DNA of 64,000 bases, from contig NZ_CP168900.1 of assembly GCF_041765605.1 (NCBI RefSeq), forward strand, positions 760,001-824,000. The letters are read 5' to 3'. Source of the stretch: Listeria monocytogenes (GTDB taxonomy: Bacteria; Bacillota; Bacilli; Lactobacillales; Listeriaceae). Of this stretch, positions 1,362-8,113 are shown piece after piece; position 1 is the first letter of the stretch, and every line of letters starts with the position of its first letter. The position numbers and the translations under genes are program-made. The notes beneath the pieces were generated by a model that saw nothing but the letters and a program-made list of their open reading frames with translations, did no database searches and had not been told where the DNA came from.

Positions 1362-1688
1362 ATGAAAGGACTTACCGAGTTACTCAAAGGTAGTTTAGAA
1401 GGAATGATTTTGGAGCGAATTTCTAGAGGAGAAACTTACGGCTATGAAATCACCAAATACCTTAACGACCTAGGCTTTGATGAAATCGTCGAAGGAACCG
1501 TCTACACCATTCTCGTCCGCCTTGAGAAAAAAGGATTAGTCGAGATAGAAAAGAAAAAATCAGAATTAGGTCCACCACGAAAATTTTACAGATTAAGTCC
1601 GGCTGGAGAAGAAGAGTTAGCCATTTTTTGGAAGCGTTGGGACTTTATGCAAGGAAAAATCATGCAAGTTAAAGGAGGGCAAGCCTAA
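1362..1688 (+). CDS. lftR: PadR-family transcriptional regulator LftR
   Basis: 108 residues forming one PadR winged helix-turn-helix domain: ISRGETYGYEITKYL (helices 1-2), EGTVYTILVRLEKKGLVE (recognition helix and wing start), then GPPRKFYRLSPAG (wing) and a C-terminal dimerisation helix. The ATG follows AGAGGAG with good spacing. An upstream ORF extending into this gene in another frame is a shadow. From memory, LftR of L. monocytogenes is a PadR repressor needed for efficient host-cell invasion and controlling a multidrug exporter elsewhere in the genome. The last base of its stop overlaps the first base of the lftS start, so the two are translationally coupled. The IR in its promoter suggests autoregulation. 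Confidence 0.85.
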   Translation: MKGLTELLKGSLEGMILERISRGETYGYEITKYLNDLGFDEIVEGTVYTILVRLEKKGLVEIEKKKSELGPPRKFYRLSPAGEEELAIFWKRWDFMQGKIMQVKGGQA

Positions 1689-2011
1689 TGTTTAAATGGT
1701 ACACAAAATACCGCGAAGAAAAACGAGATTATAAGCAGTACAAAAAACGAATAGCTGCTTTGCCAGAAGATTACAAAACCGCAATGAAAGCAATCGAAAC
1801 CTATTTATGGAGCTTTGCAAAAGGCGCAGGGATGTTCGAAATCCTAAAAAATGTCCTCGAAATGTTCGAAAATGCCGCAGCTGACAACCTAGAACTAAAA
1901 GCTGTTGTTGGTGACGACCTAGCCGAATTCGCCGACAACTTACTAAGTGAATTTCCAGAAGAAACTTGGATGGATACTCAACGAAAAAAACTGCGTGATT
2001 CGATTAAATAA
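1688..2011 (+). CDS. lftS: LftS, DUF1048 partner of LftR
   Basis: A 107-residue cytosolic protein, strongly charged at the N-terminus (KYREEKRDYKQYKKR) and helical throughout. It matches the DUF1048 type that commonly follows a PadR regulator gene in Firmicutes. It is coupled to lftR by a 1-nt overlap, with the ribosome site (AAAGGAGGGC) inside the end of lftR. The partner relationship to LftR is known by gene pairing only; no enzymatic motif is visible. The operon ends in a strong terminator shared with the convergent FusB-like gene. Confidence 0.75.
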   Translation: MFKWYTKYREEKRDYKQYKKRIAALPEDYKTAMKAIETYLWSFAKGAGMFEILKNVLEMFENAAADNLELKAVVGDDLAEFADNLLSEFPEETWMDTQRKKLRDSIK

Positions 2012-2054
2012 AAACAGAAAGCCTCTCAAACAATAATGAGAGACTTTCTGTTTT
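2012..2054. terminator. bidirectional terminator between lftS and the FusB-like gene
   Basis: AAAACAGAAAG and CTCTCA pair with TGAGAG and CTTTCTGTTTT (one mismatch between the two stem parts), with A and T runs on the two sides, so it can stop transcription from both directions. Confidence 0.8.
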
Positions 2055-2702
2055 TTATTTACGTTTCTTAACAACCTCTATAAATTCATCTAACGTTTCG
2101 TGTGCTTTTATTTGCTCGTTACAAACATCGCTATCGTAGCAAATGTAATTGCCATTTGTCGTATAAATACCGTCGCTCGAAGATTTCGTTTTCGCCATAA
2201 AGAGCGATACTTTGGAATGCGAGTGACAAATCGAACAAACGCCCTTTTGAATCTCTGTAGAAATAGTTCCTTGTACGCCGACCAAATTTCCGTCCTCGTA
2301 AGTCACGATATACTTACGCTGCTGAGCGATATCGTTCCAGCCGTAAAAAGTATAGTCGCGCAAATTTAGTTTAGACCAGGCGGGAATTTTTAATTTTTTC
2401 GTTTTCGCAAAAAGTTTTTTAAGTTTCACATCACTAGGTGGCGCGAAAGGAATCACATAGGCTTTTACCCCCTCTAAAAACGGCTCTGCTTCTTTGGTTG
2501 AAGTAATCGCATGGAGCTCGCTAAACAGTTCCTTATGCTCCTCTAGTACACTTTCCGGGAATAATTCATTGATTTTCTCCTCTGTTAGCGATTTTAATGC
2601 CTTCAAAGTCGAAGTATCATTGGCGGACCGGTATGCGCGTGAAACATTGGCTAATTGATTTTTGATAAAATTATATTGGTATGGCTCGATAAACTCTTTC
2701 AT
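2055..2702 (-). CDS. FusB/FBP-family elongation factor G-binding protein
   Basis: 215 residues with the two-part layout of the FusB family: a helical N-terminal domain beginning MKEFIEPYQYNFIKNQL, and a C-terminal treble-clef zinc domain (about 130-205) with CSICH and YICYDSDVC supplying cysteine ligands. Staphylococcal FusB/FusC bind EF-G and free it from ribosomes stalled by fusidic acid. Listeria homologues (lmo0721 by memory) were first annotated as fibronectin-binding-like because of the Pfam name FBP. Whether this copy gives fusidic acid resistance cannot be read from sequence. The ribosome site AAGGAG (2710-2715) lies inside a predicted hairpin, and a leader peptide precedes it, so expression is probably inducible (see leader entries). 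Confidence 0.85.
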   Translation of the reverse strand: MKEFIEPYQYNFIKNQLANVSRAYRSANDTSTLKALKSLTEEKINELFPESVLEEHKELFSELHAITSTKEAEPFLEGVKAYVIPFAPPSDVKLKKLFAKTKKLKIPAWSKLNLRDYTFYGWNDIAQQRKYIVTYEDGNLVGVQGTISTEIQKGVCSICHSHSKVSLFMAKTKSSSDGIYTTNGNYICYDSDVCNEQIKAHETLDEFIEVVKKRK

Positions 2703-2710
2703 TATAATTC

Positions 2711-2806
2711 TCCTTTAATAGTTTAATGTTGGTTAAACTAGCTGAAGGATTGAAGAGTTTATTTCACTCTTACTTTCTAAACAATCCTAAAGCCATTGTT
2801 AGAAAG
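2711..2806 (-). promoter_or_regulatory. translational attenuator of the FusB-like gene
   Basis: On the minus strand two structures follow one another. Stem 1 (2773-2806) pairs CTTTCTAA-CAAT with ATTG-TTTAGAAAG and contains the end of the leader ORF. Stem 3 (2711-2749) pairs TAGTTTAA with TTAAACTA around a CCAACA loop, extended by TCCTT pairing with AAGGA, which is the Shine-Dalgarno sequence of the gene. A competing pairing of AGGATTG in the leader ORF with CAATCCT would open the second hairpin. There is no T-run, so control would be at translation, as in erm-type attenuators. Confidence 0.6.
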
Positions 2807-2833
2807 TCGAGAGCAGTGCAATTTTGTTTGCAT
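2777..2833 (-). CDS. 18-residue leader peptide upstream of the FusB-like gene
   Basis: ATG CAA ACA AAA ... GTT TAG on the minus strand encodes MQTKLHCSRLSNNGFRIV. A very strong ribosome site, AAGGTGGTG (2843-2851), stands 9 bases before the ATG. The last ten codons lie within stem 1 of the attenuator, so a ribosome stalled on the leader would rearrange the downstream RNA. Too short for ordinary ORF callers; called from its ribosome site, position and structure. Confidence 0.6.
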   Translation of the reverse strand: MQTKLHCSRLSNNGFRIV

Positions 2834-2857
2834 CTCTTTGATCACCACCTTGCCTTC

Positions 2858-2886
2858 ATTATAAGCACTTCTGAATAGTTCGTCAA
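2858..2886 (-). promoter_or_regulatory. sigma-A promoter of the FusB-like gene
   Basis: Minus strand TTGACG (2881-2886), exactly 17 bp, then TATAAT (2858-2863). Transcription would start near 2851, placing the leader ribosome site at the very 5' end of the mRNA. Confidence 0.65.
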
Positions 2887-2972
2887 TTCTCTTTTATGAA
2901 TACTCTTTTAAAAACAGGGTAAACGAAAACTATTGGACATTAGAGAAAACATCCATGGGAGGAGAAAGTAAA

Positions 2973-4703
2973 ATGAAAAAAGTAAAAGCAAGTGAAACAC
3001 TCGTACAAACATTAAAAAATTGGGGAATCGACCACGTATATGGTTTACCTGGTGATTCGATTGATACAGTAGTTGATGCCTTACGAAAAGAACAAGAAGC
3101 AATCGAATTTATTCACGTTCGGCACGAAGAAGTGGCGACACTAGCCGCCGCAGCATATACCAAATTAACAGGCAAAATTGGTGTCGCATTATCTATCGGC
3201 GGCCCCGGAGCAATTCATCTTCTAAACGGGATGTATGATGCAAAAATGGATCATGTGCCAATGCTCGTACTCGCTGGGCAGGTGACAACCGACGTCTTAA
3301 ACACCGGCTTTTTCCAAGAAGTCAATTTACCAGCGATTTTCGAAGATGTTGCCGTGTATAATAAACAAATTGATAATGCCGAAACACTTGCGGATGTGGT
3401 CGATGAAGCAATCCGCACCGCTTATAAAGAAAAAGGCGTCGCTGTCTTAACGATTCCAAATGATATCCCGTCACAAGTAATTAAAGCGAGCCTTGAAGCA
3501 AAATCAGTCAAATTCGAACAAGAAAATCCAAAACTAGATGAAGCAGCAATACAGGAAGCCGTAGCACTGATTGAAAAAGCGGAAAAACCAGTTATCTTAG
3601 CTGGATTAGGGACTAAACACGCTGGACCAGAACTAATCGCCTTCTCAGAAAAATTGAAAATCCCGATTATTCATTCCTTACCAGCAAAAACCATTGTTCC
3701 AGATAACCATCCAAATGCACTCGGAAACCTTGGTAAAATTGGAACCAAACCAGCATATGAAGCCATGCAAGAAACCGACTTACTATTAATGTTCGGGAAT
3801 GATTACCCTTATAGCGACTATTTACCAAAAAAAGCAGACTGCATCCAAATCGATATTGACCCAGCCAAAATCAGCAAACGTTTCCCCGCAACAGTTGGTT
3901 TAGTAGGCGATGCCGCGGAAATCATCGGTAATTTAACCGCGAAAACCGCACCTGTAGAAGAGCGTAAATTCCTTCAAGCATGCCAAGAAAACATGCAAGA
4001 ATGGTGGAAATGGTTAGAAGAAGACATCGCAAAAACAACAGATCCAATCGCTCCAGAAGTCGTGATGGCGAACATCCAAAAAATCGCTGAGAAAGATGCC
4101 ATTTTCTCTATCGACGTAGGAACTGCAACTGTTTGGAGCACTCGTTATTTACATTTAACCCCAGAAAATGACTTTATCGTTTCCGCGTGGCTTGGTACTA
4201 TGGGTTGCGGTTTACCTGGAGCTATCGCTGCCAAAAAAGCATTCCCAGACCGCCAAGCAATCGCCATCGTCGGTGATGGAGGCTTTTCCATGGTTATGCA
4301 AGATTTCGTCACAGCGGTAGGTTTAAACATGCCAATGATTGTCGTCGTGTTAAACAACCAACAACTTTCATTCATTAAATACGAACAACAATCAGCTGGT
4401 GAACTAAACTACGCCATCGACCTACCAGATATTAATTACGCAAAATTCGCCGAAAGTTGCGGAGGAATTGGTTTCCGAGTAGAAAAAATGGCGGACCTAG
4501 AAGCTGCTTTCGAAAACGCCAAACTAGCAACGAAACCAGTTATCATCGACGTTTCCGTAGATAGCGCAGCAGCTCCACTACCAGGGAAAATCGTGATGGA
4601 CGAAGCACTCGGTTATACTAAATTCGAAATCCAATCAGTCTTAGAAGACCATCGTTTCGCAAAAATGCCACCACTTAAAACCATTTTACGTAGATTTTTA
4701 TAA
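2973..4703 (+). CDS. pyruvate oxidase (thiamine diphosphate and FAD dependent)
   Basis: 576 residues with the three domains of the POX/acetolactate synthase family: PYR domain (~1-180, with GLPGDSID and the catalytic Glu in HVRHEE near residue 52), FAD-binding middle domain (~190-340) and PP domain with the ThDP motif GDGGF at 434-438 running to NN at 461-462. I chose ATG 2973 because GGGAGGAG sits 8 bases upstream; the in-frame ATG at 2955 lies before that site. The enzyme oxidises pyruvate to acetyl phosphate, CO2 and H2O2, or, as in E. coli PoxB, to acetate with electrons to quinone; sequence alone does not decide. Corresponds to lmo0722. It is divergent from the FusB-like gene. No clear terminator follows; the 150 bp downstream is AT-rich and featureless. 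Confidence 0.9.
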   Translation: MKKVKASETLVQTLKNWGIDHVYGLPGDSIDTVVDALRKEQEAIEFIHVRHEEVATLAAAAYTKLTGKIGVALSIGGPGAIHLLNGMYDAKMDHVPMLVLAGQVTTDVLNTGFFQEVNLPAIFEDVAVYNKQIDNAETLADVVDEAIRTAYKEKGVAVLTIPNDIPSQVIKASLEAKSVKFEQENPKLDEAAIQEAVALIEKAEKPVILAGLGTKHAGPELIAFSEKLKIPIIHSLPAKTIVPDNHPNALGNLGKIGTKPAYEAMQETDLLLMFGNDYPYSDYLPKKADCIQIDIDPAKISKRFPATVGLVGDAAEIIGNLTAKTAPVEERKFLQACQENMQEWWKWLEEDIAKTTDPIAPEVVMANIQKIAEKDAIFSIDVGTATVWSTRYLHLTPENDFIVSAWLGTMGCGLPGAIAAKKAFPDRQAIAIVGDGGFSMVMQDFVTAVGLNMPMIVVVLNNQQLSFIKYEQQSAGELNYAIDLPDINYAKFAESCGGIGFRVEKMADLEAAFENAKLATKPVIIDVSVDSAAAPLPGKIVMDEALGYTKFEIQSVLEDHRFAKMPPLKTILRRFL

Positions 4704-7794: not shown

Positions 7795-7834
7795 GAATTT
7801 GTTTCCTTGAAAAGTAGTGAAGGAGGATCGTACA

Positions 7835-8027
7835 ATTAAATAGAAGCGCCAGAACTGATTGGGACGAAAATGCTTGAAGGTGAAATCCCTGAAAAGTATC
7901 GGTCAGTTGACGAGGAGGAGATTAATCGAAATTTCGGCGGGAGTCTCCCGGCTGTGCATGCAGTCGTTAAGTCTTACTTACAAATCACTTGGGTGACCAA
8001 GTGGACAGAGTAGTAATGAAACATGTT
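7835..8027 (+). ncRNA. glmS ribozyme riboswitch
   Basis: The class is recognised from its conserved elements in order: GCGCCAGAAC at the cleavage site (G1 at 7846, self-cleavage between 7845 and 7846), GACGAGGAGGAGATTAATCG, TTTCGGCGGGAGTCTCCCGG, the AAGTCTTAC region and the final ACTTGGGTGACCAAGTGG hairpin with ACAGAGTAGTAATG. It binds glucosamine-6-phosphate as a cofactor, cleaves the mRNA 5' of itself and so lowers glmS expression when the product of GlmS is abundant. It lies 85 bp upstream of glmS, as in B. subtilis. A short CCCTC/GAGGG stem lies between ribozyme and start codon. Confidence 0.95.
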
Positions 8028-8113
8028 TTTTACCCTCCAAGGAAACCAAAAAATGTAGAGGGCTTGAAATTGGATAAGTCTGCCCTCAAGTTAATTATTG
8101 GAGGAGTTTTATT

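Follow-up and report, generated by a model that had tools for sequence, protein, structure and literature searches.

How is a chromosomal gene of the FusB family, whose products act on elongation factor G (EF-G), controlled in Listeria monocytogenes? The question is raised by a locus in assembly GCF_041765605.1 (contig NZ_CP168900.1, positions 760,001-824,000), where such a gene, the locus tag of which we take to be lmo0721, is preceded by a leader containing a small open reading frame (ORF) and several predicted RNA helices. This stretch of 64,000 nucleotides (nt) is referred to below as the window, and all coordinates are relative to it. Judged by its sequence, the leader is a real, conserved translational attenuator and a new instance of a form of control that has already been described, and structure predictions make it probable that the attenuator is ribosome-mediated and controls the FusB-family gene, with a block of the EF-G type as the likely signal. 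The elements on which this interpretation rests are given here in the order in which they would be transcribed.

2858..2886, minus strand: sigma-A type promoter, TTGACG (2886-2881), 17-nt spacer, TATAAT (2863-2858), 11/12 consensus
2840..2851, minus strand: extended Shine-Dalgarno (SD) sequence of the leader ORF, AAGGTGGTGATC, at the predicted 5' end of the messenger RNA (mRNA), about 7 nt past the -10 box
2777..2833, minus strand: leader ORF, MQTKLHCSRLSNNGFRIV, 18 codons plus stop
2766..2814, minus strand: predicted stem 1:2, in which leader codons 7-13 pair with codons 17 to stop and sequence beyond the stop
2746..2788, minus strand: predicted alternative helix 2:3, formed once segment 1 is covered
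2689..2762, minus strand: predicted stem 3:4, which buries the SD, start codon and codons 2-5 of the gene
2710..2715, minus strand: AAGGAG, SD of the FusB-family gene
2055..2702, minus strand: gene for a FusB-family EF-G-binding protein of 215 amino acids, start at 2702, assigned by profile, structure-chain and FusB alignments

The RNA from 2851 to 2680 is predicted to fold with an energy of -43.3 kcal, compared with -29.3 kcal (standard deviation 3.9) for shuffled sequences (z -3.6), and 0 of 200 shuffles are as stable. The minimum-energy fold contains stems 1:2 and 3:4. Within the latter, TCCTT (2749-2745) pairs with AAGGA (2715-2711) of the gene's ribosome site, and a second part, absent from the initial annotation of this DNA, pairs 2762-2751 with 2701-2689, that is, with the start codon and codons 2-5. 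The competing helix 2:3 is formed by AGGATTG (2788-2782) and CAATCCT (2752-2746) and is extended by AAGAGT (2771-2766) with ACTCTT (2758-2753). As AGAG-type and CTCT-type segments alternate along the leader, each could pair with either neighbour. The initial annotation had proposed a stem that includes the end of the leader ORF, the AAGGA/TCCTT hairpin and the AGGATTG/CAATCCT competitor; all three are recovered by the present predictions, the second and third in longer form. The same is true of the outline of the transcription unit, for which it had claimed the TTGACG-17-TATAAT promoter, an mRNA beginning at its own strong ribosome site, here placed at the predicted 5' end, and the 18-codon ORF (2833-2777).

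During free-running translation of the leader, stems 1:2 and 3:4 would form, leaving the gene's ribosome site and start codon buried; a ribosome halted at about codons 6-9 would cover segment 1, so that segment 2 would be free to pair with segment 3 and thereby expose the ribosome site. This switching was modelled by forcing every base up to 16 nt beyond the first base of the codon in the peptidyl (P) site to be unpaired, and computing the cost of opening the gene's SD. For the window leader the predicted cost falls from 6.3 kcal in the free RNA to 4.0 with the ribosome at codon 5, 2.0-2.1 at codons 6-8 and 0.2 at codon 9, and rises again to 2.9 at codon 10, 4.0 at codon 11 and 6.2-6.3 from codon 12 onward. 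The resulting opening well is 6.0 kcal deep, compared with 0.2 in shuffles, 0 of 25 of which are as deep. Seven of the 11 distinct Listeria leaders (L002, L005, L006, L007, L010, L011 and L012) behave in this way, from 6.2-6.3 kcal in the free RNA to a minimum of 0.1-0.9 at codons 7-9, and in all four leaders tried the result is stable to footprints of +10 to +19 and to temperatures of 30 or 37 C, the best codon shifting within 7-11. Over 45 non-redundant leaders of the family, the mean well is 2.46 kcal versus 0.21 in dinucleotide shuffles (Wilcoxon p 6e-11) and the free SD-opening cost is 4.57 versus 2.95 (p 4e-5), these p values being lower bounds on chance because the leaders are related by descent; 24 of the 45 beat all 25 of their own shuffles, 28% of shuffles reach the free cost of their leader, and the leader of fusB on plasmid pUB101 has a well of 4.9 compared with -0.1 in shuffles. 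The erm-type logic suggested in the initial annotation is supported by prediction in each of its parts, namely a leader ORF, a hidden ribosome site and an alternative pairing that depends on a stall.

Conservation within the genus is consistent with this interpretation. Of 25 Listeria genomes searched, 24 contain some protein match and 15 an orthologue at 86-100% identity, and the leader is found in all 15 of the latter, in 11 distinct versions. The ORF always has 18 codons and no insertions or deletions (10 variable and 0 gapped of 57 columns), compared with 9 variable and 8 gapped of 68 columns in the stretch between its stop and the gene's SD. Six of the seven variable leader codons alter the amino acid. 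Because the frame is gap-free and yet most of its variable codons change the residue, the leader appears to be conserved as an ORF and not obviously as a peptide; the purifying selection on the 18 codons anticipated by the initial annotation is therefore not borne out at the peptide level. Both promoter hexamers are kept in 15/15 Listeria orthologues, and TATAAT also in the Vagococcus leader L036. This makes the promoter credible despite the shuffle count: it is the best of five promoter-like sites in 1500-4500, and shuffled sequence averages 6.3 such sites, so that the lone site is not significant. AAGGTGGTGATC is the same in the 15 Listeria leaders and in Vagococcus L036, and is complementary to the 16S tail at 11/12 positions; the pattern AAGGNGGTGATC has five matches in the genome, among which the leader copy alone has T. 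In three Listeria genomes (G001, G006 and G007) the FusB-family matches each fall in two pieces, some with internal stops, and represent broken genes or assembly errors.

A number of results weigh against the switch as described. In four of the 11 Listeria leaders (L013-L016) the opening cost drops only from 4.1-5.7 to 1.3-2.2 kcal; about half of the SD is unpaired whether or not the mask is applied, and these leaders retain three of the five SD-pairing bases, the third pair of L014 being lost only to an alignment gap. Vagococcus L036 shows no opening at all (4.2 throughout), and the well is below 0.5 in 11 of the 45 family leaders (L036, L040, L064, L106, L109, L113, L121, L125, L143, L145 and L205), while 13% of all shuffles match the depth of their leader's well. 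In the four leaders for which it was computed, the cost of opening the SD, the start codon and all that lies between drops from 7.5-10.1 kcal and is still 2.2-4.1 at best. Covariation adds little. Among 12 leaders, the two structures have 94.6% and 96.8% of their cells paired (the structural alignment of covariance-model matches was not used for these counts, since its 20 matches come from 17 sources, three being second matches within their source), and each structure has a single both-side change, a level reached by 286 and 47 of 500 shuffles, respectively. The stems are almost invariant in Listeria, so that the covariation check within the genus is nearly uninformative. The both-side change in helix 2:3 is a G-C to U-A replacement in Vagococcus L036; stem 1:2 is mostly unpaired in Vagococcus when compared column by column, and the Vagococcus RNA folds a stem of its own there. 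Finally, a 2013 paper, represented here by its title in a reference list, describes fusidic acid as effective against L. monocytogenes in vitro, which fits strong intrinsic protection badly.

In addition to the helices considered so far, a hairpin is predicted around the start codon of the leader ORF.

2810..2837, minus strand: predicted start hairpin P0, AGAG/CTCT and TGCAA/TTGCA around the leader ATG, the CTCT arm competing with stem 1:2

This hairpin was analysed in 39 representatives, six leaders of the long-leader type or outliers (L169, L183, L205, L040, L056 and L065) being left out here and kept in the 45-leader comparison. Across the 39 as a group the predicted start-codon hairpin is favoured: the local ensemble energy is -7.36 compared with -4.98 in shuffles (p 4e-10; 14/39 singly at p 0.05), and the start codon is paired above 0.5 in 33/39, with a mean of 0.80 versus 0.64 (p 0.002; 11/39 singly at p 0.05). 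The window's own hairpin is not significant on either measure (energy p 0.10, ATG pairing p 0.145). By a loose rule, not calibrated on shuffles, the local fold of 39/39 leaders has one or more such pairs. The hairpin may restrict the loading of ribosomes on the leader, reserving the switch for a stalled ribosome that persists for a long time, although this is a guess. Its 3' arm sits in codons ~4-8, a position that bears on a further possibility, that the leader is an amino-acid-starvation attenuator in which uncharged serine transfer RNA (or that for histidine or cysteine) stalls the ribosome at a recurrent serine codon. Serine does occur within codons 4-9 in 34/39 leaders, and TCT accounts for 38/58 serine codons there versus 2/30 elsewhere (p 6e-8, a value too small since the leaders are related). 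On the other hand, in the predicted hairpin 34/38 of the TCT codons of this interval have partners that lie at codon 3 or further upstream, so that the TCT excess can be explained by back-pairing; the five leaders of 39 that lack serine in this interval include that of pUB101 fusB, described as induced by fusidic acid, and no leader contains a run of one codon. Serine sensing is set aside on these grounds as very improbable.

What, then, would halt the ribosome? The published trigger of pUB101 fusB is fusidic acid, and for this reason a block acting through EF-G, by fusidic acid or a natural agent that works similarly, is the likely signal; that fusidic acid is the inducer in Listeria we infer by analogy. 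The FusB-family protein, by homology to FusB, would then release EF-G that is stuck on the ribosome, which would lift the block and close the switch again. The same switch could instead be triggered mainly by peptidyl-transferase or exit-tunnel drugs (macrolides, lincosamides, chloramphenicol) that act by way of a specific nascent peptide, for which the codon 6-9 window would suit a short arrest peptide; other Listeria attenuators, rli53/lmo0919, rli59/lmo1652 and rli80/hflXr, answer such drugs according to the excerpted text of PMC8079631 and PMC6310831. We regard this as unlikely: the RLR motif is absent from the leader peptide MQTKLHCSRLSNNGFRIV, whose codon 9 specifies R, L or V among Listeria, the leader peptides of the family are mutually unlike, and the protein family acts on EF-G. 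An arrest-peptide motif or conserved peptide is accordingly rejected as the basis of stalling, and a stall independent of the nascent peptide would fit better, since the peptides differ widely while the early stall window recurs.

The strong RNA structure of the leader would also be compatible with autoregulation, in which the leader is the binding site of the FusB-family protein or some other factor and the small ORF a bystander. We give this explanation hardly any weight. Otherwise divergent leaders have in common an ORF with a strong SD at a similar distance, the predicted opening depends on the position of the ribosome, and in Listeria the ORF has 0 gapped columns compared with 8 in the stretch that follows it. 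Transcription attenuation of the rli53/rli80 type was rejected, as no intrinsic terminator-like site was found on the minus strand between leader and gene. Ribosome-mediated translational attenuation with an EF-G-type signal remains the interpretation adopted below.

The reach of the arrangement beyond Listeria was examined in two ways. A covariance model built from 12 leaders gave 21 matches at an expectation value (E) of 0.1 or less in 395 genomes of the order, 20 of them below E 0.01, and all 20 adjoin a FusB-family gene (15 in Listeria, four in genus g162 and G638). The Listeria matches are hit by construction, as is G573, whose protein is identical to that of L036, a member of the model; G451, G487, G511 and G638 are independent of the model's own set. 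The remaining match (G588, E 0.084) was taken as chance, no FusB match being listed there. FusB-family matches occur in 113/395 genomes of the order and 161/398 of the class, from which 157 upstream regions, a selection of mostly full-length matches rather than the whole set, were examined by a strict rule for the leader (SD energy, an ORF of 11-22 codons and set distances). Five regions without a called gene start (L132, L137, L139, L144 and L160) count as leaderless in this tally, and L050, L134 and L152, also counted as leaderless, display a leader on inspection.

By the strict rule, leaders were found in 57/75 regions from three other families of the same order (f4 42/54, f2 8/12, f5 7/9), in 6/14 from f15, which is probably Staphylococcus, in 3/3 close Listeria orthologues put in, in 2/2 Enterococcus records from a plasmid collection, and in pUB101. 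Family f4 contains an Enterococcus-like genome with a leader peptide equal to that of an E. faecalis record (L109, L067). The rule found leaders in 0/13 f28, 0/7 g148, 1/14 f9 and 1/22 other regions of the class, as well as in 0/6 of the distant Listeria FusB-family genes. Reversed upstream stretches gave 3/152 (1/14 in f9, 2/13 in f28, none in others), and a looser rule gave 78/152 FusB regions versus 3/64 window ORFs, one of the three being the leader itself. Across the family, it is the leader ORF with its strong SD that recurs at a similar distance, the remaining sequence, including the peptide, being divergent.

In a tree of 60 proteins the family splits into two clades (support 100/100). 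The clade of Listeria, Vagococcus, f2, f4, f15 and pUB101 has 39 rows, 31 of them labelled leader-bearing (L085, L086 and L089 by hand, as the covariance model had found them); the other has 21 rows, seven leader-bearing by a loose rule, and holds the six distant Listeria genes, all leaderless. The window gene groups with Vagococcus-like genes, with modest support (95/62). Some regions depart from the general pattern. In L095, L100 and L104 (G508, G626 and G721), the leader part, about 190 nt upstream of the FusB gene, is unlike that of close relatives and has no called ORF, whereas the ~40 nt next to the gene resemble theirs, which we read as natural loss or replacement of the leader. Four f15 regions (L042, L043, L046 and L048) have FusB genes of the leader-bearing clade and no called leader ORF upstream. 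Family f9 (L040, L052, L056, L058, L065 and L169) has FusB genes of the other clade with a longer leader of about 30 codons and a CATGCAAAG / CTTTGCATG-like inverted pair; the wells of the four put to shuffles are 0.3 to 2.2.

The FusB-like identity proposed for the gene product in the initial annotation holds, as both family domains exceed their curated cut-offs (EF-G-binding_N, PF07299, 99.4 bits against 27.1; FBP_C, PF16571, 49.5 bits against 27.2). The protein matches solved FusB chains in the PDB (Far1) at E 1.6e-47, is 41.0% identical to pUB101 FusB over residues 1-209 and contains the four cysteines of the treble-clef zinc finger, CSIC and CYDSDVC aligning with CTIC and CRDSIHC of FusB. 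Scores against the named resistance alleles of NCBIfam are far below the cut-offs (fusD 166.9 bits against 450, fusB 166.3 against 375, fusF 162.5 against 435, fusC 124.5 against 400). Two L. monocytogenes records hold the gene at 97-98% protein identity, and an E. faecalis family member is 46% identical. A weak FusB-like match at ~1.5 Mb in the same genome (E 2.6e-4) was taken as chance, on the evidence of the corresponding loci of two relatives (L029 and L031), which encode a YqeY-like protein.

Next to the FusB-family gene lie a pyruvate oxidase gene and a PadR-DUF1048 pair (1362-2011, plus strand), the PadR gene of which is annotated lftR in one L. monocytogenes record. No Rfam family matches the leader at gathering score, the sole match in the window being a glmS ribozyme elsewhere (7834-8028, plus strand, 150 bits). 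The locus is also present in two Listeria "plasmid" entries, NZ_CP030101.1 (2.9 Mb) and NZ_LR134399.1 (394 kb), which look like mislabelled chromosomes or chromosome pieces.

The primary report of translational attenuation of pUB101 fusB is reportedly that of O'Neill and Chopra in 2006. In the excerpts available of PMC3352095, PMC12008383 and PMC12493156, FusB of pUB101 is induced by translational attenuation through fusidic-acid-stalled ribosomes on the leader; the corresponding excerpt of PMC12190993 words this as "probably". The initial annotation named no earlier description for the Listeria gene. The arrangement is not new to the family, given these accounts of S. aureus fusB; for the Listeria gene itself, open-access papers on lmo0721, or on Listeria with fusidic acid, attenuator or leader, yielded no description, subscription papers being outside the search. 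As excerpted, PMC12008383 considers that the chromosomal homologs of Listeria and enterococci could have a housekeeping function and confer resistance by chance, PMC11611940 finds E. faecalis and E. faecium genomes to lack fusB, fusC and fusD, and a 2025 review states that regulation of FusB homologs "remains unknown" (PMC12493156). The new point is the breadth of the leader arrangement.

From its sequence distribution, this form of control seems to be native to one clade of FusB-family genes and widespread in it, and a pUB101-type leader in 15/15 close Listeria orthologues and in 57/75 regions of three families argues for a stall-responsive role rather than a chance housekeeping one. Tentatively, and with our judgement tilted slightly against so broad a statement, the chromosomal genes of the Listeria/Vagococcus/Enterococcus-like/pUB101 clade might be dedicated, normally-off rescue genes, as opposed to housekeeping genes with an accidental protective effect, and might sense blocked elongation through a shared, peptide-independent attenuator. 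Its components would be an extended SD, a hairpin at the start codon and a series of purine/pyrimidine segments whose pairings exclude one another, and only a ribosome halted near codons 5-11 would open the series. A known plasmid drug-response device may thus be a native chromosomal one, and the exact RNA segments on which its stall-responsive role can be tested are named here.

Compared with ermC-type attenuators, the Listeria leader has the same logic of 1:2 and 3:4 against 2:3, a leader ORF and a hidden gene SD; it differs in having no recognised arrest-peptide motif, a target that acts on EF-G and an additional predicted start hairpin. It shares with rli53-lmo0919 and rli80-hflXr of Listeria the control of a ribosome protection or rescue gene by ribosome stalling on a small ORF, whereas those systems, in the excerpts of PMC6310831 and PMC8079631, use premature transcription termination and the FusB leader has no terminator. 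The difference from pUB101 fusB lies in the location of the gene, which in Listeria is chromosomal and present in 15 genomes, in a protein identity of 41%, and in a leader and peptide (MLKDITYLKLLDLEYKMLCS) unlike those of Listeria. Despite this divergence, pUB101 fusB is a FusB-family gene of the same protein-tree clade, and its own 20-codon leader ORF with a strong SD, starting 138 nt upstream, is accompanied by a predicted start hairpin and a predicted SD-opening cost that falls from 7.5 kcal in the free RNA to 2.6-3.4 at codons 5-10.
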